The translations under genes were made by a program, and so were the position numbers. Below the pieces are notes generated by a model. It searched no databases, had not been told where the DNA came from, and saw nothing but the letters and a program-made list of their open reading frames with translations. Of a stretch of 44,164 bases of DNA, positions 6,425-44,164 are shown one piece after another (positions within the stretch are counted from its first letter, which is position 1; every line of letters starts with the position of its first letter). Source of the DNA: Oscillochloris sp. ZM17-4 (GTDB taxonomy: Bacteria; Chloroflexota; Chloroflexia; Chloroflexales; Chloroflexaceae); contig NZ_JAIEWN010000003.1 in the NCBI RefSeq assembly GCF_019599295.1, positions 55,497 through 99,660 on the forward strand. The letters are read 5' to 3'.

Positions 6425-6541
6425 CGGCGGTCCTTTCTTAGAGCACTGAGCGGAATGATTGAGTCACTGAGCCACTGAATCTCGCGCCGCACGCTCAATC
6501 GTTGTGGGGATTATAGCATCACTCGGCTGACGGCTAATACC

Positions 6542-6572
6542 ATTTCAGATTTCAGATTTCAGATTTCAGATT
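6542..6572. repeat. heptamer array ATTTCAG x4
   Basis: Four perfect consecutive ATTTCAG units (6542-6569) plus ATT. It is part of the period-7 repeat family seen at several places in the window. Confidence 0.9.
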
Positions 6573-6651
6573 GCCGGACAGTGCGTTCCAATGCGCTATG
6601 TCTGTACTATATATGCGGTATGTTCAACAGGAAATTGGTATAACGCCCCCC

Positions 6652-6680: not shown

Positions 6681-6739
6681 GACATGGCTCCTGCTGCAAG
6701 GCCGAGCGACAGAGCAGCGGGCACCCAGGCGCGGAATGT

Positions 6740-6809
6740 GCAATCTGCAATCAGCAATCAGCAATCTGCAATCTGCAATCAGCAATCAGCAATCAGCAAT
6801 CAGCAATCA
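6740..6809. repeat. heptamer array GCAATC[A/T] x10
   Basis: Ten consecutive 7-bp units, GCAATCA or GCAATCT, without interruption. It sits in the predicted 5' leader of the downstream gene. Copy number could vary between strains. Confidence 0.92.
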
Positions 6810-6909
6810 GACTGGGCACCCCAGGTACACACGGGACGAGCACCTACGACAGGTCAGAACACGCAGGCCGAACGCGCGCCACGGCCGGCGCCCTCGGCAA
6901 GGAGTACGT

Positions 6910-10391: not shown

Positions 10392-10420
10392 CCAGCACCT
10401 CTGCGATACCTGTTATACCA

Positions 10421-10541
10421 TTGCAGATTGCAGATTGCAGATTTTGGATTGCAGATTACCGCGCATGGCGTTCCAATTGATGCCGTGCATGGCGTTCTTC
10501 TGCACCAAATCTGCGATCTGCAATCTACAATCTGCAATCTT
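10421..10541. repeat. facing heptamer arrays between kinase and regulator genes
   Basis: TTGCAGA units (10421-10455, five, one degenerate) face AATCTGC-type units (10508-10540), the reverse complement. They are separated by about 52 bp that contains a direct repeat GCATGGCGTTC twice. The arrays could fold as a long imperfect hairpin in the mRNA. Confidence 0.85.
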
Positions 10542-10544
10542 GTC

Positions 10545-11018
10545 TTAGCTATGCCCGTTGAGCGAGGGCACCTGCACAATGCTGAAGAAGAGCCCGAGCT
10601 GCCGGATCGCCTTGATAAACGCATCGTAGTCTACCGGCTTCGTCACATAGTTGCTACAGCCCAGCAGGTGGCAGATCTCGATCTCGTGCGGGTCCTCGGT
10701 GGTGGTCAGCATGGTCACCGGCAGCTTGCGCAGCTCGGGGTCGGCCTTGATCTGGCGCAGCACCTCGACCCCGTCAACCCTCGGCATGCGGATATCGAGC
10801 AGCAGCAGGTAGGCGCGCCCGTGATCGCGCTGTGGCCCGTCGCCGCGTCGAAAAAGAAAGTCGAGGATCTCCTGTCCATTGCCGAAGACCATAATCATAT
10901 TATGCAGGCCGGCGCGGCGCAGGTTTTTCTGGATCAGGGTCGCATGTCCGTCGTCGTCGTCGGCGATCAGGATAACCACTTCATCCGTCACAGCAGCCTC
11001 TCTCTGTGGGTGGCTCAT
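10545..11018 (-). CDS. Rcp1-like single-domain response regulator
   Basis: A 157-residue stand-alone receiver. ILIADDDDGHATLIQKNL supplies the acidic pocket. YLLLLDIRMPRVDGVEVL carries the acceptor Asp, followed by the TTT segment and YVTKPVDY with the conserved Lys. The insertion between beta 2 and beta 3 (FLFRRGDGPQRDHGRAY) is typical of Rcp1/CheY-like regulators that partner phytochrome or PAS kinases. It lacks an output domain, so it acts by protein contact or as a phosphate shuttle. Its ATG overlaps the TGA of the kinase upstream by 4 nt, so the two are surely co-translated and probable cognates. Confidence 0.93.
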   Translation of the reverse strand: MSHPQREAAVTDEVVILIADDDDGHATLIQKNLRRAGLHNMIMVFGNGQEILDFLFRRGDGPQRDHGRAYLLLLDIRMPRVDGVEVLRQIKADPELRKLPVTMLTTTEDPHEIEICHLLGCSNYVTKPVDYDAFIKAIRQLGLFFSIVQVPSLNGHS

Positions 11019-13258: not shown

Positions 13259-13280
13259 AGGCGTGGCCTGGGATAGGCAA

Positions 13281-13333
13281 GATTGCAGATTGTAGATTGC
13301 AGATTTGACCGCATGCGACGCATCAGGTCAAAT
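13281..13333. repeat. heptamer array GATTGCA/GATTGTA and adjoining dyad
   Basis: Four 7-bp units (13281-13308), the last degenerate, run into an ATTTGACC (13303-13310) / GGTCAAAT (13326-13333) inverted repeat. It sits upstream of both divergent signalling genes, so it could affect either. Confidence 0.75.
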
Positions 13334-18301: not shown

Positions 18302-18338
18302 GTAAGGGCGCAGCAGCGCCGCGCTGCTGCGCCCTTAC
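18302..18338. repeat. 37-bp REP-like palindrome, copy 1
   Basis: 18-bp arms (GTAAGGGCGCAGCAGCGC and its complement) around a single C. An identical 37-bp element lies at 31125-31161, and a related longer one at 21709-21781. Confidence 0.85.
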
Positions 18339-20900: not shown

Positions 20901-21695
20901 TCACAGCAGTCGGCTCGTCATCGTCTGCTGGGCGCGCAGCTCCAGCGACGCGTCGAGGGGGGCGATGGCCACATCCGCGCCGTAGCGGCGGCGCATGGCC
21001 AGGTCGATCAGGTGGTCGGTGAGCTGCGGGTTCTTCGGCAGCAGCGAGCCGTGCAGGTAGCAGCCGATGGTGTTGCGGTAGATCGCGCCGCCGCGGCCAT
21101 CCTCGCCGCTGTCGCCGTGGCCGGACAGGACGCGCCCCAGGCTGCGCACCCCCGGCCCGTGGTAGGTGCGCCCGCTGTGGTTCTCGAAGCCCACCAGACG
21201 GACAGGAGTTGGGGGTTGGGGGTTGGGGGTTGGCACGAAAGACCCAGCCCCCAACCCCCAACCCCCAACCCCTACCTCAATCACAATATTCCCGATCAGG
21301 CGCCTGCTGCCGCCGACGGTGTGGACATCGAGGGCGCCGAGGCCCGGCAGGCGCTCGCCGGTGTGGGTGATGAAGTAGTGGCCGAGCAGCTGGTAGCCGC
21401 CACAGATCGCCAGCAGCACCAGCCCGTCGTCGATCGCGGCGCGCAGCCCCGGCCCCTGGCGCTCCAGCAGGTCGGCGGCGATCAGCGACTGCCCGCTGTC
21501 CTGCCCACCGCCGAAGAAGGCCAGGTCGAAGCCGGCCCAGTCCACGCTATCCCCCGGCTCCACCGGCGTCACCTCCAGGGCGATCCCGCGCCAGGCGCAG
21601 CGCTGCCGCAGGGCGATCACGTTGCCGCGATCTCCATACACGTTCATCTCGGCGGGGTAGAGGTGGGCGAGCTTTAAGATAGAGGGTTGTATCAT
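20901..21695 (-). CDS. gatD: GatD/CobQ-like glutamine amidotransferase
   Basis: A class I glutamine amidotransferase of 264 residues from ATG 21695; the longer frame to 21815 runs through a palindrome. LLAICGGYQLLGHYF carries the nucleophile Cys, and GCYLHGSLLPKNPQLTDHLI carries the catalytic His in the form typical of GatD, which supplies ammonia to MurT for amidation of the lipid II D-Glu. NVYGDRGNVIALRQR and GGGQDSGQSLIAADLL also match. murT is not in the window, so another acceptor (CobQ-like) is possible. Just before VGFENHSGRTYHG there is an in-frame insertion of ~22 residues (VGVGGWGLGAGSFVPTPNPQ then PPTP) encoded by two facing GTTGGGG heptamer arrays. A 7-nt gap separates it from the next gene. 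Confidence 0.85.
   Translation of the reverse strand: MIQPSILKLAHLYPAEMNVYGDRGNVIALRQRCAWRGIALEVTPVEPGDSVDWAGFDLAFFGGGQDSGQSLIAADLLERQGPGLRAAIDDGLVLLAICGGYQLLGHYFITHTGERLPGLGALDVHTVGGSRRLIGNIVIEVGVGGWGLGAGSFVPTPNPQPPTPVRLVGFENHSGRTYHGPGVRSLGRVLSGHGDSGEDGRGGAIYRNTIGCYLHGSLLPKNPQLTDHLIDLAMRRRYGADVAIAPLDASLELRAQQTMTSRLL
21208..21272. repeat. facing heptamer arrays inside gatD
   Basis: GTTGGGG units (21208-21233, three and a partial) face CCCCCAA units (21248-21272, three and a partial) across a 14-bp loop. The whole lies in frame in gatD and makes a Gly/Trp then Pro/Thr/Asn segment. Confidence 0.92.
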
Positions 21696-21708
21696 GGGAT
21701 TGTCGTTG

Positions 21709-21781
21709 GGGCGCAGCAGGGGCCGCGCCCGATGCATATGAGGTCGCTGGGCTACTCGGAGGCGCGGCCCCTGCTGCGCCC
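21709..21781. repeat. REP-like palindrome, long variant
   Basis: 21-bp perfect arms, 21709-21729 and 21761-21781, with a 31-bp centre. The ends (GGGCGCAGCAG ... CTGCTGCGCCCTTAC) match the 37-bp elements at 18302 and 31125. It occupies the proA-gatD gap. Confidence 0.75.
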
Positions 21782-21792
21782 TTACCGCACGC

Positions 21793-23064
21793 TTACGCCC
21801 GCACGCTATAGTCACCGACGGCCACCCACCGATAGGTCGTCAGCTCCCTCAGCCCCATCGGCCCGCGGGCGTGCAGCTTCTGGGTGCTGACGGCCACCTC
21901 GGCGCCGAGGCCGAACTGGCCCCCGTCGTTGAACCGCGTGCTGGCGTTGACGAACACTGCCGCGCTGTCCACCTCGCGCACAAAGCGCTCGGCCGCCGCC
22001 GCGTCCTCCGTGAGGATGGCGTCGCTGTGCGTGCCGTAGGCTGCGATATGGTCGAGGGCCATATCGAGCCCGTCCACCACGCGCACCGACAGGATCAGGG
22101 CCATAAACTCGGTGCCGAAGTCGTCCGGCCCGGCGGGCACGATCCGCCAGCCCGCGGCGCCGGGCGCGTCGGCCAGGATGCCCAGCGCCTCCGCGTCGCA
22201 GCGCAGCTCGACCCCGGCGGCGCACAGCGACTCGGCCACCGGCGGCAGCAGGGCCGGGGCGGCCTCGCGCTGCACCAGGAGCGTGTCGAGGCTGTTGCAG
22301 ACGCTCGGGCGCTGCACCTTGGCGTTGTGGATGAGCGGCACGGCGCGCGCCACGTCCGCCGTCGCGTCGGCGTAGATGTGGCAGACCCCGATGCCGCCGG
22401 TGATCACCGGGATGGTGGCGTTCTCTAGGCAGAAGCGGTGCAGGCCGCCGCCGCCGCGCGGGATGATCATATCGACATAACGATCTAGGCACAGCAGCCC
22501 GCGCACCAGCTCGCGGTCGGGGTCGGTGATGCTCTGGACGGCGTCGGCGGGCAGCCCGCAGCGCCCCAGGGCCACGCCGATTGCCTCAGTGATCGCGGCC
22601 ACGCTGCGGGCGATATCGCTGCCGCCGCGCAGGATGGAGGCGTTGCCCGTCTTCATGCAGAGCGCGGCGATATCGACCGTCACATTCGGCCGGGCCTCAT
22701 AGATCACGCCGACCACGCCGAGCGGCGTGCGCCGCTTGTGCAGGCGCAGGCCGTTGGGCAGATCGGCCGCGTCAAACAGCTCGCCCACCGGGTCGGGCAG
22801 CCCGGCCACGCTGCGCGTGTCGGCGGCGATCACCTCCAGCCGCGCCGGCGTGAGTAGCATGCGGTCGAGCAGCGCGGGGCTGGTGCCGGCGGCGCGCGCC
22901 GCATCCATATCATCGCCGTTCGCGGCCAGGATCGCCTCCTGCCGCTCGATCAGGACATCGGCGATCATCAGGAGCGCCGCGTCCTTCTCTGCGCGTCCCA
23001 GGCGGGCCAGCTGCCGCGCCGCCGCCTTCGCCCGCCGGCCGATCTGCTCAAGGTCGCCGCTCAT
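21793..23064 (-). CDS. proA: glutamate-5-semialdehyde dehydrogenase
   Basis: NADPH-dependent gamma-glutamyl phosphate reductase, second step of proline synthesis. The 423 residues are standard. Motifs in order: [72 protein letters not shown] with the catalytic Cys, [10 protein letters not shown] and [20 protein letters not shown] near the end. All are intact. Its ATG overlaps the TGA of the small membrane protein upstream in an ATGA junction, and gatD follows after 97 bp holding a palindrome. proB, the usual partner, is absent from the window. Confidence 0.96.
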
Positions 23065-27953: not shown

Positions 27954-29336
27954 ATGAAATACCACATAGTCACCCTTGGCTGTCCCAAGAACGCTGTCGA
28001 TAGCGAGGGCATGGACGGAATCCTCTCCGGCGAGGGCCACGCGCAGGCCGCCCGCGCCGATGACGCCGATGTGATCATCGTCAACACCTGTAGCTTCATC
28101 GCCGCCGCCCGCAGCGAGACGCTGAGCGTCCTCGGCGAGCTCGGCGCCCAGAAGCGCGAGGGCCAGCGCCTGATCGCCGCCGGCTGCATGGCCCAGAGCC
28201 ACGGCGACCTCGTCTCCGGCGTGGCCGGCGTCGATGCCACCCTCAGCACCCAGCAGTGGATGCGTATCGGCGAGCTGGTTGGCGAGCGTGCCAGCGCGAA
28301 CGGCAGGCAGGTGCCCGTGATCGGCCTTGAGCCTGCGGCAAAGGCCCCAACCCCCAGTGCCCAACCCCCAACCCCCAGCTCCTACGCCGACTGGCGCACG
28401 GCCCAGATCCGCCGCACCCGCAGCGCGCCCTCGGCCTACCTGAAGATCTCCGACGGCTGTAACCTGCGCTGCGCATTCTGCACCATCCCGAGCTTCAAGG
28501 GCGATATGGCCTCTAAGCCGGTCGGCTCCATCCTCGCCGAGGCTCAGGAGCTGGCCGCCCGTGGCGTGCGCGAGATCGTCCTGGTCGCCCAGCACCTCAC
28601 CGACTATGGCCGCGACCTGAAGATCACCGATGGCCTGGCCACGCTGCTCGATGAGCTCTGCCAGGTGCTCCCCGAGAATGTCTGGCTGCGCCTGATGTAC
28701 GCCTACCCCCACGGGGTCTCCGATCGGCTCATCCAGGTGATGGCCGACCGACGGCAGGTGCTGCCCTACCTCGATATGCCGCTGCAGCACGCCCACCCCG
28801 ACACGCTGCGCCGCATGCGTCGCCCCCCGGACGCCGACCGCACCCGTGGGATCATCCGCGACCTGCGCGCCGCCATGCCCGATATGGCCATGCGCTCGAC
28901 CTTTATCGTCGGCTTCCCCGGCGAGACGAGCGCCGAGTTCAAGGAGCTGCTCGCCTTCCTCGATGAGGTGCGCCTCGACCGGGTCGGCGCCTTCCGCTAC
29001 TCGCAGGAGCCGGGCACCCACGCCGCAACCCTGGCGGGGCAGGTGCGCCCGCAGGTGATCGAGAAGCGCTGGCACGAGCTGATGCAGCTCCAGCAGGGGA
29101 TCTCGCGCGAGCGTAGTCAGCACTGGCTTGGCCGTAGGATCGATGTGCTTGTTGAGGGTCATGGGACGGCGGATGACGGACGCCCGCTCGCGCTGGGCCG
29201 CTCGTTCCGCGACGCGCCGGAGGTTGATGGTCAGGTCTTCGTGTGGGGATCGCCGCCGGTTGGGGAGATTGTGACGGTACACGTCACGCAGGCGACAGAT
29301 TACGATCTGTGGGGGGAAATGAATGTTGAATGTTGA
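27954..29336 (+). CDS. rimO: ribosomal protein S12 methylthiotransferase RimO
   Basis: Radical-SAM enzyme of 460 residues that adds a methylthio group to an Asp of ribosomal protein S12. The N-terminal UPF0004 domain has LGCPKNAVDSEGM, VNTCSFI and AAGCMAQ, whose Cys ligate the second cluster. The radical-SAM motif CNLRCAFC follows in KISDGCNLRCAFCTIPSFKG. RSTFIVGFPGETSAEF is conserved, and a C-terminal TRAM domain (IDVLVEGHG onward) closes it. Two oddities: a Pro-rich insert KAPTPSAQPPTPSS (residues ~130-145) is made by CCCCCAA-type heptamers (28345-28378). The last residues MNVEC and the TGA stop are made by a GAATGTT array. Neither hits a conserved residue. The gene follows yajQ. Confidence 0.95.
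   Translation: MKYHIVTLGCPKNAVDSEGMDGILSGEGHAQAARADDADVIIVNTCSFIAAARSETLSVLGELGAQKREGQRLIAAGCMAQSHGDLVSGVAGVDATLSTQQWMRIGELVGERASANGRQVPVIGLEPAAKAPTPSAQPPTPSSYADWRTAQIRRTRSAPSAYLKISDGCNLRCAFCTIPSFKGDMASKPVGSILAEAQELAARGVREIVLVAQHLTDYGRDLKITDGLATLLDELCQVLPENVWLRLMYAYPHGVSDRLIQVMADRRQVLPYLDMPLQHAHPDTLRRMRRPPDADRTRGIIRDLRAAMPDMAMRSTFIVGFPGETSAEFKELLAFLDEVRLDRVGAFRYSQEPGTHAATLAGQVRPQVIEKRWHELMQLQQGISRERSQHWLGRRIDVLVEGHGTADDGRPLALGRSFRDAPEVDGQVFVWGSPPVGEIVTVHVTQATDYDLWGEMNVEC
28345..28378. repeat. heptamer array inside rimO
   Basis: About five 7-bp units of the type CCCCCAA/CCCCCAG, one degenerate (TGCCCAA), in frame between the two main RimO domains. They encode a Pro/Thr linker. Confidence 0.85.
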
Positions 29337-29382
29337 ATGTTGAATGTCACATTCAGCATTCAACATTCAGCATTCAACATTC
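29321..29382. repeat. facing heptamer arrays at the rimO end
   Basis: Four GAATGTT units (29321-29348, last GAATGTC) face five [A/G]CATTCA units (29349-29382), almost without a spacer, so a long imperfect hairpin is possible. The rimO stop TGA (29334-29336) is inside the left array. The convergent BlaI-type gene ends at 29386, just past the right array. Confidence 0.9.
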
Positions 29383-31120: not shown

Positions 31121-32393
31121 TGCCGTAAGGGCGCAGCAGCGCCGCGCTGCTGCGCCCTTACGCATCGCCTTCCTCACCGGCGAGTACCCGCCGCAGCCCG
31201 GCGGCGTTGGCGACTACACCCGCCAGCTCGGCCGCGCCCTGGCCGCCGATGGCCATCAGGTGGTGGCGATCACGATGAGGGACGGCTGCTTGGCGATCTA
31301 CGACCAGATCATGGATCGGCCCGACCTCGCCGAGCCATCTTTTGTCACCTTCCAGATGCTGCGCGATCCCCGGCCGCTCACCTGGTCGCCGCGCTCCTGG
31401 CGCTCCATCCGCACCGCCATCCACGTATGGCACCCCGACTGGCTGCATATTCAGTACCAGACCGGGGCCTATGCGATGAGCGCCGGCGTCAACCTGCTCC
31501 CCCGCTACCTGCGCCTCTTCCCGGAGCGCCCGCAGATCGCCGTGACCTTCCACGATCTGCTGGAGCCCTACCTCTTCCCCAAGGCCGGCCCCCTGCGCGC
31601 GTGGGTCAACCGCCGCCTCGCCGCTGACGCCGACGCGGTGGTGGCCACCAACGCCGCCGACGCGGATCGGCTGGCGGCCATGCGGCTGCGCGGCCCGGCC
31701 CTGGCGACGATCCCGATCGGCTCGAATATCGCTGTGGCCCCGCCCCCCGGCTACCGCCGCGCGGCCTGGCGCGAGCGCCTCGGCGTCGGCCCCGGCGAGC
31801 TCCTGGTGGCCTACTTCGGCCTGCTCTCGCGCAGCAAGGGGGCCGACCTGCTCGTCGAGGCGCTGTCCACCCTCGATAGTGCCACGCCCTGGCGGCTGCT
31901 GATCGTCGGCGGGGCCGCCATCGCCCCGCAGGATGTCGCCTTCGCCGCCGAGCTTGAGGCCCAGATCGCCCGCCTCGGCCTCGGCCAGCGCGTGATCCGC
32001 ACCGGGCACGTCGATGCGGCGGATGTCTCGGCCCATCTGCTGGCCGCCGACTGCGCCGCCCTGCCCTTCCGCGACGGAGCCTCGCTGCGGCGCGGGAGCC
32101 TGCTCGCCGCCCTCGCCCACGGCTGCCCGCTGCTCACCAGCGCCCCCGCCGATGCCGAGACCGCCGCCGCGCTAGGCGACGGGGCGGCCGCCATGCTCAC
32201 CCCCCCCGGCGACTGCGCCGCCCTGGCCGAGTCGCTCGCCCGCATCGCCGCATCCCCCGATCTGCGCGCCGACCTGGCCGCCGCCGGGCGCGCTGCCGCC
32301 GCCCCGTTCGGCTGGCCGCAGATCGCCCGCCAGCACGCCATGCTCTACGGGCGCGACGTATTGTTTCGGGCTGCCAGCTCCGCCGGGCCGTAA
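31104..32393 (+). CDS. GT4-type glycosyltransferase, N-terminus formed by a palindrome
   Basis: A GT-B fold glycosyltransferase of 429 residues. The conserved part begins RIAFLTGEYPPQPGGVGDYT, with the glycine loop. HIQYQTGAYAM and FHDLLEPYLFP follow. The C-terminal half has VAYFGLLSRSKGADLLVEAL, LLIVGGAA and PFRDGASLRRGSLLAALAHG in place of the EX7E region. The sugar and acceptor are unknown; surface glycan assembly is plausible given gmd. No ATG, GTG or TTG lies just before RIAFL. The only in-frame start is TTG 31104, inside the upstream gene, so residues ~8-20 (VRAQQRRAAAPLR) are translated from a 37-bp palindrome. The stop TAA lies in the loop of another hairpin. Confidence 0.83.
   Translation: MAGSRSAVRAQQRRAAAPLRIAFLTGEYPPQPGGVGDYTRQLGRALAADGHQVVAITMRDGCLAIYDQIMDRPDLAEPSFVTFQMLRDPRPLTWSPRSWRSIRTAIHVWHPDWLHIQYQTGAYAMSAGVNLLPRYLRLFPERPQIAVTFHDLLEPYLFPKAGPLRAWVNRRLAADADAVVATNAADADRLAAMRLRGPALATIPIGSNIAVAPPPGYRRAAWRERLGVGPGELLVAYFGLLSRSKGADLLVEALSTLDSATPWRLLIVGGAAIAPQDVAFAAELEAQIARLGLGQRVIRTGHVDAADVSAHLLAADCAALPFRDGASLRRGSLLAALAHGCPLLTSAPADAETAAALGDGAAAMLTPPGDCAALAESLARIAASPDLRADLAAAGRAAAAPFGWPQIARQHAMLYGRDVLFRAASSAGP
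31125..31161. repeat. 37-bp REP-like palindrome, copy 2
   Basis: Identical over 37 bp to 18302-18338. It starts 4 nt past the polyprenyl synthase stop and is read through as the glycosyltransferase N-terminus. Confidence 0.87.
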
Positions 32394-40054: not shown

Positions 40055-43000
40055 CGGGCTAGCATGGCTTGTCCTTCTCGCCCTACTCCTTGCGCTCCTC
40101 CCTATTGGGTGTGTCGCCGATCTGGCGCTGCGCTTCGTGACGCCCTCCAACGCGCCGTTTAAGGATGTCGGCTCCTCGTCGGGACTGAGCGCCTACATGC
40201 CCTTCCCTCCAGGCCTGAGCTACGCCGCCCCCGACCCGAACCTGCCGAACCTGCGCGAGACGGAGATCGCTCGCCGCGAGCTGACGCCGGTGGGGCTGCG
40301 CGGCGCGATCACCGTCGCCCCAGTCGTTGAGGTGGCTCCCCCGGTCTCACAGATCGACCCGCCGACGCCGACGGCGACGCCGACGGCCGTCGCTGCGCAG
40401 CGCCCCACCGCGACAAAAGCCCCCTCTCCCACCGATGTGGCCGGCGGCGCGGGCATCTCCCCCACCCCGACAAGCCTGGTGATCATCTCTGGCTCCACGG
40501 CTACCACCGGCCCTACGCTGCCCCCCTCACCGACGACCCCGCGCACGCCGACGGCGACAACCACCACTCTGCCGACGAATGGGGCCGCGACGCCAACGCG
40601 TACGCTGGTGCCGCTGCCCAGCGATACGAGCATCCCGATAGCTACGCCGACCCTGCCGCTGGTGAGCACGCCGACCCTGCCGCTGGTAAGCACGCCGACC
40701 CCGCCGCTGGTAAGCACGCCGACCCCGCCGCTGGTGAGCACTGCCACGCCGACTCAGACGGAGGTGCCGACGCAGACGCCGACGCAGACGCCGACGCAGA
40801 CGCCGACGCAGACGCTCTCGCCAACTCCGTCGAGCACGCCAACATCGACGCGTGTGCCCGACCCGGTGCCCACCGGCTTCTTCGCCGCGACGACCGTCTC
40901 TGTGGCTGAGGGGAACAGCGGCCTCACCGCTCTGACCTTTACCGTGAGCCTGGATATCAGGGCGATCTCGACGGCGCAGGTGAGCTTCCGCACGATCGAC
41001 GGCACGGCGACGGTCGCGAACAATGACTATCAGGCACTCAATGGCGTGCTCACCTTCCTGCCCGGCGAGCAGACAAAGACGATCACGGTGCAGGTGGTCG
41101 GCGATGTGGTCGATGAGCTTGATGAGTCGTTTATCCTTGAGCTCTTTAACCCGCAGGGCCTCAGGCTGCTGTCGGCGCTGCCGCAGGCGACTGGCACGAT
41201 CCTGAACGATGATGATCCTGCGGTGAGCATCGCCGTGGCGTCCCCGGCGTCGGGCAGCGTGGCCGAGGGCTCTGCCGGCATTACGACGACGGTCACGCTG
41301 AATGTGAGCCTGAGCAGTGTGAGCCTCCAGCCCGTCACGGTGAACTACGCTACGGCCGATGGCACGGCGACGACGGCGAACAATGACTATGTGGCCGCCA
41401 GCGGCACGCTGACCTTCGCGCCCGGCGAGACTCTTAAGACGATCTCGGTCGTGGTGAACGGCGATACGGTCGCCGAGCTGAACGAGGCATTCACCGTCGC
41501 CCTGAGCGCCCCGACAAACGCCACGCTTGGCATATCGCCGGCGACGATCACTATCCTCAACGATGACCTGCCGCGGGTGGGCATCAGCCCGGCGACAGTG
41601 AGCGTGACGGAGGGCACCTCAGCGACCGGCACGACGCCGATGACCTTTACGGTAACGCTGCTCGACCCGGCCAGCGCGGCGGTGAGCCTGAGCTATGCGA
41701 CGGTCGGGTCGGGCACGAACCCGGCGACGATCGGCACGGATGTGACAACTGCGAGCGTGAGCGGCACCCTCACCTTCCCCGCGGGCGCGCCTGCTGGTAC
41801 GACCCGTACAATCACGCTCCAGGTGGTTCAGGATAGCATCGCTGAGCAGAACGAGGCGCTGACGGTCACGCTGACGGCTCCCGCGCCCGCCAGCGCGCAG
41901 ATCACCGTCGGCAGCGCCACCGGCACGATCCTCGACGATGATCTGCCGCGGGTGAGCATCAGCCCGGCGACGCGCAGCGTGACCGAGGGCACCTCAGCGG
42001 CCGGCACGACGCCGATGACCTTTACGGTGACGCTGCTCGACCCGGCCAGCGCGGCGGTGAGCCTGAGCTATGCCGCCGCCGGGTCGGGCGCAAACCCGGC
42101 GACGATCGGTACGGATGTGACAACTGCGAGCGCGAGCGGCACCCTTACCTTCCCGGCGGGGTCGGCCGCCGGCACGACCCAGACGATCACGCTGCAGGTG
42201 GTGCAGGATAGCATCACTGAGCCGAACGAGACGCTGACGGTCACGCTGACGGCGCCCGCGCCCGCCAGCGCGCAGATCACGGCCGGCAGCGCCATCGGCA
42301 CGATTACCGACGATGACTTCTCAACCATCACCATTGACTCGCCATCGATTACCGAGGGGGACAGCGGGACGAAGGTCTTGACCTTTACGGTGACTCTGCC
42401 CGCTCCAGTGCCGGCTGGCTACACGGTGACGGTCAACTATGACCCCACGGTGAATGGGACGGCGACGGCTGGCTCGGATTACGTCGCTCTGGCGGCTGGC
42501 TCGGTCAACATCAATGCGGGCCAGCAGACAGGGCTGATCGTTGTGACGATCAATGGCGACACGACCTACGAGCTGGACGAGACATTCACCATCTCGCTGA
42601 CGAGCGCGAGCGTGAGCGGCTTCTCTGCCCCGATTATCGGGGCGACTGGCACGGGTACGATCATCAATGACGACACGCTGACTGCGAGTATTGACTCGCC
42701 ATCGATTACCGAGGGGAACAGTGGGACGAAGGTCTTGACCTTTACGGTGAGCCTGAACGCCCAGCCATCGGCGCTTATCGCGCCGGTGACCGTTGTCTAT
42801 CTGGTGCAGGATGGCACGGCGACCGTAGCCGATAGCGATTACATAGCTGCCCCCGCGACTGGGACTTTCACCTTCACCAGTGCAGGGGGCATGACTCGGC
42901 AAATCCCGGTGACGATCATCGGCGACACGACAGCGGAGCCGGACGAAACCTTCACGATCCAGCTTCAGAACCCGACTGGCGGTGCGGTGATCTCGGCGAC

Positions 43001-44164
43001 AAACGGCACGGGCACCGGCACCATCCTCAACGATGACTTCTCGACGCTGACATTTAATGCCCCCTCAGTCCTTGAGGGCGCGGCTGGCGTAACGACCACG
43101 CTCAACTTCCGCGCGACCTTCGTGTCGCCGCCTACCTCTGCCGGCGTGATTATCTACAGCACGGCTGATGGCACTGCCACGGTCGCTAACAATGATTATG
43201 TGCCCGTGACAAACGGCATCGTCGCCTTTGCTGCCAACGCTCCTTTTGTGGACTTGCCGGTGACGATCAACGGCGATGATGCCCTCGAGCCCGATGAGAC
43301 GTTCTCGGTGTCGATCACTGGCCCGATCGGCAACGGCGCTACGGGCACCGGCACGATCACCAACGATGACTCGGTCGTTGGCTTCAACAAGACGGCGGTG
43401 CTGGGTCTGAACACAGGGCCGGGCGGCACGACCGCGGTGCGGTATACGATCACGATCAACAATCCGCTATCGACGGGCATTCCCCTGAATGTGATTGTCA
43501 CCGATACGCTCGACGCCACCTACAATCTGACGAATACGCCACCACCAAGTGCAAGCCTTGCTGGCGCATTCACATTCACGACAGGCACCGGCGCGACAGT
43601 GAGCTGGAACGGCACCATACCGGTAGGTGCCACGCTGGTGATCACGATAGATGGTACGTTCCCGAATGTTGGGGCCTGCCAGACGCGCTACAACACCAGT
43701 CTGGTGCTACAGGTTGAGGCGTCTGCGCCGAGTCAAAGTCTAGACTCGGCCCCAGTGAATATCGACTCCGCTGGCCCCTGCACGCTGCTGCGCCTCGCCT
43801 CGCCCTTCCTGCGCAAGCCGCTCCTGCCGCTGGCGCTGCCTGCGCGCGCCGACGCTGCCCCCGCGCCGACGGCGACGGCCACGCTGACCTCCACCGCCAC
43901 AGCGCGGCCCACGGCGACGCCCACGGCGACGAGCACGAGCACGCCCACGGCCACGAGCACGGCCACGGCCACGCTGACGCCGACCAACACGCTCACGCCG
44001 ACGGGGACGCCGACGCCGACGAAGAAGCCGAATTCTAGCAGGCCGCCAGATCCGACGCTGACAAGCACGCCGGTGCCCGCGCCGACGAGCACGCCAGTGC
44101 CGCCAACAAGCACGCCGGTGCCCGCGCCGACGAGCACGCCAGTGCCGCCAACGAGCACGTCAGT
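40002..44164 (+). CDS. giant exported Calx-beta repeat protein, 3' partial
   Basis: The open frame runs from ATG 40002 to the window end without a stop (1,387 codons read), so it is partial. The N-terminus is basic (RRRDG) then hydrophobic (LAWLVLLALLLALLPIGCVA), a signal peptide or anchor with a lipobox-like IGC. After a Thr/Pro-rich stretch (about 118-292, repeating TPTLPLVS and TQTP units) come seven Calx-beta domains (about 293-1123). Each has the pattern SVxEGxSG ... DGTATxxxNDY ... GTLTFxPG ... DExFxxxL ... GTIxNDD, with Asp/Glu clusters expected to bind calcium. A DUF11-like domain (about 1124-1252) and a second Thr/Pro tail follow. Domains 3 and 4 are near-duplicates. Role: probable calcium-dependent adhesion or sheath protein. 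The start overlaps the sensor kinase by 53 bp. Confidence 0.88.
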   Translation, partial: MNTRSRSHNQTDPRRRRDGLAWLVLLALLLALLPIGCVADLALRFVTPSNAPFKDVGSSSGLSAYMPFPPGLSYAAPDPNLPNLRETEIARRELTPVGLRGAITVAPVVEVAPPVSQIDPPTPTATPTAVAAQRPTATKAPSPTDVAGGAGISPTPTSLVIISGSTATTGPTLPPSPTTPRTPTATTTTLPTNGAATPTRTLVPLPSDTSIPIATPTLPLVSTPTLPLVSTPTPPLVSTPTPPLVSTATPTQTEVPTQTPTQTPTQTPTQTLSPTPSSTPTSTRVPDPVPTGFFAATTVSVAEGNSGLTALTFTVSLDIRAISTAQVSFRTIDGTATVANNDYQALNGVLTFLPGEQTKTITVQVVGDVVDELDESFILELFNPQGLRLLSALPQATGTILNDDDPAVSIAVASPASGSVAEGSAGITTTVTLNVSLSSVSLQPVTVNYATADGTATTANNDYVAASGTLTFAPGETLKTISVVVNGDTVAELNEAFTVALSAPTNATLGISPATITILNDDLPRVGISPATVSVTEGTSATGTTPMTFTVTLLDPASAAVSLSYATVGSGTNPATIGTDVTTASVSGTLTFPAGAPAGTTRTITLQVVQDSIAEQNEALTVTLTAPAPASAQITVGSATGTILDDDLPRVSISPATRSVTEGTSAAGTTPMTFTVTLLDPASAAVSLSYAAAGSGANPATIGTDVTTASASGTLTFPAGSAAGTTQTITLQVVQDSITEPNETLTVTLTAPAPASAQITAGSAIGTITDDDFSTITIDSPSITEGDSGTKVLTFTVTLPAPVPAGYTVTVNYDPTVNGTATAGSDYVALAAGSVNINAGQQTGLIVVTINGDTTYELDETFTISLTSASVSGFSAPIIGATGTGTIINDDTLTASIDSPSITEGNSGTKVLTFTVSLNAQPSALIAPVTVVYLVQDGTATVADSDYIAAPATGTFTFTSAGGMTRQIPVTIIGDTTAEPDETFTIQLQNPTGGAVISATNGTGTGTILNDDFSTLTFNAPSVLEGAAGVTTTLNFRATFVSPPTSAGVIIYSTADGTATVANNDYVPVTNGIVAFAANAPFVDLPVTINGDDALEPDETFSVSITGPIGNGATGTGTITNDDSVVGFNKTAVLGLNTGPGGTTAVRYTITINNPLSTGIPLNVIVTDTLDATYNLTNTPPPSASLAGAFTFTTGTGATVSWNGTIPVGATLVITIDGTFPNVGACQTRYNTSLVLQVEASAPSQSLDSAPVNIDSAGPCTLLRLASPFLRKPLLPLALPARADAAPAPTATATLTSTATARPTATPTATSTSTPTATSTATATLTPTNTLTPTGTPTPTKKPNSSRPPDPTLTSTPVPAPTSTPVPPTSTPVPAPTSTPVPPTSTS
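41573..42313 (+). repeat. tandem duplicated Calx-beta units (domains 3 and 4)
   Basis: 41573-41943 and 41944-42316 are close copies: both begin CTGCCGCGGGTG and share many long identical runs (for example GATGTGACAACTGCGAGCG). Domains 5 and 6 also share a 27-bp identical segment (42333-42359 and 42690-42716). Recent unequal recombination is the likely cause. Confidence 0.8.

Follow-up and report, generated by a model that had tools for sequence, protein, structure and literature searches.

Facing heptamer arrays in frame in a gatD-like gene of Oscillochloris sp. ZM17-4: a probable copy of a dispersed hairpin element

Introduction

Arrays of heptamers are on record from several phyla, with no established mechanism behind them. 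In the window analyzed here, a 44,164-nt stretch of the genome of Oscillochloris sp. ZM17-4 (contig NZ_JAIEWN010000003.1, positions 55,497 to 99,660), two such arrays face each other inside a conserved gene. The locus raises the question of how repeats with a 7-base step came to lie in coding DNA and how the gene tolerates them. It is well suited to the question in two respects: GatD is a well-folded enzyme in which the array amounts to a removable loop, and a 330-kb contig of this genome (G000) is collinear with one of its sister species (G005), which allows each site to be compared for the presence of an array, the replacement of its unit, the inversion of its core, and the reading frame.

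Results

The gatD-like gene and its arrays

Both arrays are hosted by the minus-strand ORF at 20901-21815. Alignment with relatives places the likely start at 21695, giving a gatD-like gene of 264 aa (20904..21695, minus strand, with the frame open from 21815) with a GATase_3 domain (PF07685, CobB/CobQ-type glutamine amidotransferase; 120 bits against a cut-off of 27). The protein is a relative of GatD of the MurT/GatD complex, the lipid II isoglutaminyl synthase subunit, and a genus relative without the insert (L010) matched the solved GatD 5n9m with an E value of 7e-53. Since the window protein did not reach the NCBIfam equivalog cut-offs (NF045636, 178 bits with a cut-off of 400; NF052463, 194.5 with a cut-off of 450), the name "gatD-like" is used.

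Read on the plus strand, the G-rich arm is (GTTGGGG)3.7 (21208..21233; 100% match) and the facing arm is (CCCAACC)4.3 (21243..21272; 95% match). The 9-nt spacer between them (21234..21242) forms, with flanking bases, part of a 14-nt core, GGCACGAAAGACCC (21232-21245). The sequence-only reading had proposed that the two arrays could pair in a hairpin, which agrees with the fold of the coding-strand RNA: the segment reaches -69 kcal/mol (z -7.1), and 0 of 200 shuffles were as good. The arrays also present G-runs of four to five in the sequence. The invariant VGFENHSG follows directly after the arrays, so the described placement just before a conserved block holds. The proposed addition of about 22 residues stands as the span of the arrays, which cover 65 nt or about 22 codons. 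Relative to array-free genus members, however, the segment from IGN through FENH.G is only 5-16 residues longer (42 residues in the window protein versus 26, 30, 31, and 37 in those members) because loop codons were replaced.

Elsewhere in the window, palindromes resembling GGGCGCAGCAGCG make up a repeated hairpin family (18308-18333, 31131-31156, and 21704-21780, the last just upstream of gatD), and coding tandem repeats of 24, 45, and 375 bp occupy 40644-44159.

The site in relatives and the inverted core

In a comparison with one genome per species, 51 gatD loci were read, and the site was readable in 50. The sister species G005 has a collinear contig on which the gatD product is 88% identical, with matching facing arms at the same gatD site that encode arm peptides like those of the window. 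All four other genus members read (G001-G004) lack arrays there. These four have the loop codons DL.T in common, which are missing in both carriers; therefore, the element took the place of part of a turn that varies, and the clean gap anticipated in related GatD sequences was not seen. A target duplication was sought as well, and the relatives show replacement at this place, with no clean empty site. A Gly/Pro segment shared by all homologues in different codons, which would have spoken against an insertion, was not found either, as among the 50 readable sites the segment occurs in the window and G005 only and is written in the same heptamers.

The core GGCACGAAAGACCC has one exact match in G000 and one in G005, both in gatD and in opposite orientations, and one further match with one mismatch elsewhere in G000. 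Because no other exact copy was able to supply it, we read the gatD core as probably flipped in place since the two species split. Among the eight sites with comparable cores, an inverted core was found at gatD alone. In G007 and G015, arrays discerned by eye in gatD (AACTGCC-like and octamer-like facing, respectively) fall below the array-scan threshold and are leads, not counts.

Loop tolerance and reading frame

The AlphaFold model of the window protein, built with 26 relatives, has a mean pLDDT of 90. Apart from residues 149-161, no run of at least three residues falls below a pLDDT of 50; this segment lies inside the heptamer-encoded residues 142-163, in a turn between two long strands. 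The loop also differs in length among GatD homologues. These observations support the earlier idea of a tolerated loop insertion; the insert seems tolerated rather than useful, and the loop would then be neutral for the enzyme.

That the element class enters coding DNA was equally borne out, with 23 arrays inside ORFs, in 17 called genes, in 607 kb of G000; the calls are rough, coming from our own hexamer-score script and not from a standard caller, 2 of the 23 arrays have a poor coding score downstream, and one array-bearing called gene holds a run of N. A further 11 arrays lie in 8 genes called, also roughly, on the G005 contig. Orthologous loops may hold different units in the two species, as in a 737-codon gene and a 619-codon gene. 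As genes were called on G000 only, the partner's frame provides an independent test. Between G000 and G005, the length difference was a multiple of 3 at 6 of the 7 sites inside genes and at 15 of the 43 other sites (p 0.017 in a one-sided Fisher test); the numbers are small, and a few of the entries for the other sites share a slot, so that these are not all independent. The remaining gene-internal site differs by 34 nt. The selection for frame suggested at gatD therefore gains partial support from the class, but the difference at gatD itself is 0, which proves little.

Abundance, polarity, and placement of the arrays

Array density was estimated on the window's contig (C106) and a second long contig that also has matches (C95:1-277499), 607 kb in total. 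Density figures were limited to these because 20 other stretches had been chosen by similarity to the element; the counts of start phase, MITE ends, and arm positions also took in such stretches. With a score of at least 14, there were 132 period-7 arrays (70 in C106 and 62 in C95), whereas no other period between 5 and 21 exceeded 13 arrays on either contig, and one Markov shuffle of each contig yielded 1 and 0 period-7 arrays. Lowering the score to 12 gave 145 (78 and 67). By extrapolation, the whole 6.69-Mb genome would hold about 1,600 arrays. The units are diverse (GATTGCA, GAATGTT, GGGGACA, GTTGGGG, GGGTACA, GATAGCC, GGCAGGC, and others), and the window has, besides gatD, a single C-type array of the GATTGCA class with 10 copies (6739..6810; a shorter array lies at the same place in G005), an AGATTGC array of 3.7 copies (13280..13305), an imperfect CCCCAAC array (28345..28377; an AACCCCC array lies at about the collinear place in G005), and facing GAATGTT arrays common to G005 (29320..29382). 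Matches to the GTTGGGG pattern numbered 68 in G000 and 190 in G005, counts for which the control is void because the reversed string is identical.

Polarity was strict. The G-rich arm came first in 38 of 40 facing pairs (C106, C95, and contig C51 of G005), with one C-rich arm first and one tie, and this polarity extends to the AT-rich unit GATTTTA. For arrays no more than 40 nt from a gene, the G-rich strand mostly points away from that gene, by 58 to 5 near stops and by 36 to 14 near starts. Among 88 arrays in roomy gaps, 56% lay within 15 nt of a gene versus 22% under random placement (maximum of 33% in 200 placements); 31 of 142 non-coding arrays sit between divergent genes. The gatD copy lies inside a gene, whereas the class is mostly intergenic near ORF ends.

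Phase and arm comparisons gave less. A start phase was preferred in several families, for example with 66 of 82 GATTGCA arrays opening (G)ATTGCAG and 25 of 38 GGGGACA arrays opening AGGGGAC, and was not fixed in the GTTGGGG family (top phase 8 of 34). A fixed outer phase was consequently set aside as proof of mobility, being strong for GATTGCA and GGGGACA and absent for GTTGGGG. The idea that one arm had recently been copied from its partner found no support either and was set aside: when units were compared position by position in 52 variable pairs, 6 were closer, 9 less close, and 37 equal.

Two other features of these contigs were recorded. Intergenic inverted repeats free of heptamers (C106, C95, and C51) are G-first in 168 cases and C-first in 53, with 26 ties; in genes, the figures are 66 to 51, with 19 ties. 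At C106 307981-308441, GATTGCA arms surround about 400 bp with promoter-like and terminator-like stretches (by eye), partly kept in G005, a possible small RNA unit.

Turnover between sister species and a MITE-like carrier

Of 60 elements on C106, 28 have an array at the corresponding site in G005, 22 have no array there by scan, and 10 are not collinear; the reciprocal comparison of 49 elements on C51 gave 27, 11, and 11. Degenerate arrays are visible by eye in some of the slots scored as having no array (elements 8, 31, and 40). By eye, the unit was replaced in both arms with the flanks kept in elements 25 and 53, and it also differs at the same site in elements 17, 32, 41, 51/52, and 54. Clean one-sided indels between two collinear contigs numbered 22, of which 3 hold arrays. 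A second palindromic element, CAATACCGCAGAAGT...ACTTCTGCGGTATTG, was observed within G005 heptamer arrays (L079 16600-16840, at C51:76599, and C51:195243).

Some copies are borne by a small carrier element. The window contains a complete MITE-like element, TAATACCA...TGGTATAA (6535..6643, 109 bp), which holds (ATTTCAG)4.4, has TAA on both sides, and by eye is absent at the collinear place in G005. A second, MITE-like copy with facing GATTGCA arrays (10413..10547) starts with TTATACC and has a degenerate right end; its G005 site is cleanly empty, with TTA duplicated. A family of such elements occurs in the genus of G016 and G027, with a length of about 108 bp, ends TWATACCA/TGGTATWA, a kept core, and a GATAGCC or GATTGCA array inside one end. 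In the G016 sample, 5 of 7 perfect-ended copies have arrays inside one end. One 108-bp copy has at least 21 matches in G027 (40 of 349 candidates were scored), and matching 3-bp TWA flanks were seen by eye in 7 of the 10 copies from G016 and G027 in which both ends could be read. The core GCCGGACATGGCGTCTCAATG is kept in copies L287 9201-9312, L309, and L311-L314 (G027 copies), and the units differ among G016 copies.

The terminal inverted repeats TWATACCA/TGGTATWA were not found around the gatD copy. Of the 251 arrays of G000 in which G outnumbers C, only 2 have a WWA(T/G)ACC end within 16 nt, and gatD is not one of the two. As the ends are absent at gatD and in 249 of 251 arrays, transposition is unproved for most copies.

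Spread among genomes and unit length

Overlapping matches to GATTGYA numbered 1313 in G000, 1446 in G016, 0 in its congener G027, and 498 in G007. The pattern is present in 21 of 400 Chloroflexota genomes, in distant families, with a reversed control of 0. A scan of 80 named loci around gatD relatives detected no facing pairs there, and period-7 arrays numbered 15 in 512 kb (L098-L134) and 4 in 693 kb (L135-L177). Array abundance is therefore a trait of some genomes. The densest sample was G007 (L094 and L228-L235), with 38 period-7 arrays of score 12 or more in 64 kb and about 20 units by eye. Viral spread was considered and dropped, since exact 25-mers of two units occurred in 9 and 7 IMG/VR stretches, too few and with hosts not known.

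The unit is not always of seven bases. Over 66 kb, G015 has 8-base and 7-base arrays at 7 to 1 (periods 6, 9, 12, 15, and 18 also have 4-6 arrays each); two 8-base pairs are plainly facing and G-first, and long facing 8-base arrays, GGGACGAG / CCCCGTGT, lie at L096 7033-7295. The ratio of 8-base to 7-base arrays is 4 to 3 in 20 kb of G003 and 18 to 40 in 184 kb of G016, and G000 has a few 8-base arrays, such as GCACTGAG. Together with the polarity of GATTTTA, these arrays weaken two causes discussed for the Xanthomonas repeats (PMC4692102), and they argue against a universal 7-base polymerase footprint and against shared G-quadruplex formation.

Discussion

We consider it probable that the gatD segment is a copy of a dispersed hairpin element that entered a turn of the protein before the two species split and has been tolerated there as an in-frame loop whose core has since flipped, in a class whose history would include turnover by slippage and delivery of a minority of copies by a MITE. 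The proposal builds on what was observed for the gatD copy, namely its position, class, polarity, presence in G005, core inversion, frame, and low-confidence loop. The element would consist of two facing heptamer arrays able to form a hairpin, with the G-rich strand running inward from both sides. Entry into the GatD beta-hairpin turn would precede the divergence of G000 and G005 and would have displaced a few loop codons. The copy may have been kept because the roughly 22 residues it encodes form a disordered loop that is harmless to the fold, with selection holding the frame. No GatD function is implied, and the copy would be a passenger. Its unique center would have been flipped in one lineage, as expected if inverted arms recombine or switch template. 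Across the genome, arrays would stay in place while their units are replaced through slipped-strand turnover in 7-base steps, a process suggested by the unit changes at occupied sites, and a minority of copies may be delivered by a transposing MITE-like carrier.

Neither the recurrence of one heptamer in distant families nor the polarity is accounted for by slippage alone. A broader possibility, to which we give little credence, is a dedicated process, active across bacterial phyla, that adds short repeats of fixed step (7 and, in some lineages, 8) in one polarity to hairpins or to the ends of DNA, exchanges the unit at a given place, spreads units between lineages, and thereby creates and rewrites in-frame disordered loops such as that of GatD.

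Among the alternatives, the one that survives best, albeit as an improbable one, is that the gatD copy is a MITE insertion with decayed ends, the heptamer arrays being its subterminal repeats. It draws on the family of about 108 bp that carries arrays inside one end (5 of 7 perfect-ended G016 copies), on its at least 21 matches in G027 and the TWA on both sides of 7 of 10 copies, and on the one complete and one degenerate copy in the window. However, no such ends remain at gatD or within 16 nt of 249 of 251 G-rich arrays in G000, and the gatD core has no second exact copy in the genome.

Somewhat less likely still is retention of the arrays for a structure, either a hairpin or a G-quadruplex in RNA or DNA, that acts at gene ends, the gatD copy being stray or regulatory. 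The crowding of arrays near genes (56% of 88 within 15 nt versus 22% when permuted), a G strand that leads away from them, the G-first bias of other intergenic inverted repeats (168 to 53, compared with 66 to 51 in genes), and a different hairpin in the other species at several slots (by eye) would all fit. Nevertheless, 31 of 142 non-coding arrays sit between divergent genes, the AT-rich GATTTTA shares the polarity so that G-quadruplexes are not required, and hairpins are common anyway, occurring in 34-43% of gaps at least 40 bp long. For this last reason, and given the arrays between divergent genes, we do not claim the slots with interchangeable hairpins as terminators.

A telomerase-like reverse transcriptase that extends both 3' ends at a break with heptamers copied from a template, before the ends are joined, would yield G-first arms and so account for the strict polarity (38 of 40 pairs) and the preferred start phase in several families (GATTGCA, 66 of 82; GGGGACA, 25 of 38); DRT10 is reported to synthesize DNA of tandem repeats on an RNA template (PMC12632851). 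Against it, the GTTGGGG family has no start phase, and the many units per genome would need many templates. Moreover, among 61 genomes searched for RVT_1, matches numbered 3 in G000, 1 in G005, 2 in G016, and 0 in G007, the array-densest genome sampled (88% complete), for which reason we regard such a generator as very unlikely. Finally, a conserved functional GatD peptide with repeats by codon coincidence is hardly credible, since, although G005 has the same peptide arms, the segment is missing at 48 of 50 readable sites (all but the window and G005), the inverted core yields different residues in the two species, and the heptamers are identical rather than synonymous codons.

Arrays of this kind are also a recurring source of new in-frame protein segments.

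Tandem 7-base units also make up the cyanobacterial STRR heptamers, and facing arrays have a close counterpart outside the phylum.

The comparisons that follow draw on the available portions of the cited papers. Facing convergent heptamer arrays near ORF ends are a known kind, described in Xanthomonas by Rehm et al. in 2015 (PMC4692102). There, dispersed GGGAATC heptamers with mostly 4 copies include 70 and 75 cases of two nearby arrays in convergent orientation; the G-rich repeats lie within 50 bp upstream of ORFs (antisense) or downstream of stops (sense), and 83% occupy corresponding positions in two species but vary in length and sequence. The gatD copy shares with that convergent type the tandem 7-base unit and the G-rich-first convergence, but not the unit GGGNATC, which is the one unit type in the portion of that work considered, whereas G000 has many, including AT-rich ones. 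The Nostoc units GGGGA(C/T)T are tandem and 7-base alike but form few facing pairs (PMC4692102). The TAACTGA sets of Beggiatoaceae (PMC4679880) are similar 7-base tandem sets, mostly intergenic with 10 inside ORFs, but they are direct repeats with one inverted case in 170 sets. Geobacter metallireducens has 49 elements of four heptanucleotide units (PMC2700814), which similarly lie within and between genes but are termed predicted regulatory, and the text available for them gives no in-frame or inversion data. In a Porphyromonas gingivalis MITE with a minisatellite (PMC4596501), the array lies inside a small element with terminal inverted repeats, whereas the gatD copy lacks recognizable ends. 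Among the matches listed in the open-licence PMC literature, no title or abstract describes facing heptamer arrays for Chloroflexota. Relative to the portion of the Xanthomonas work considered, the entry into a protein in frame with a frame test, the core inversion, the MITE-borne copies, and the 8-base arrays in relatives go further. What is new here, as judged against these sources, is thus the many units per genome, the orthologous unit replacement, the 108-bp MITE-like carrier, the 8-base arrays, the core inversion, and repeated in-frame entry.
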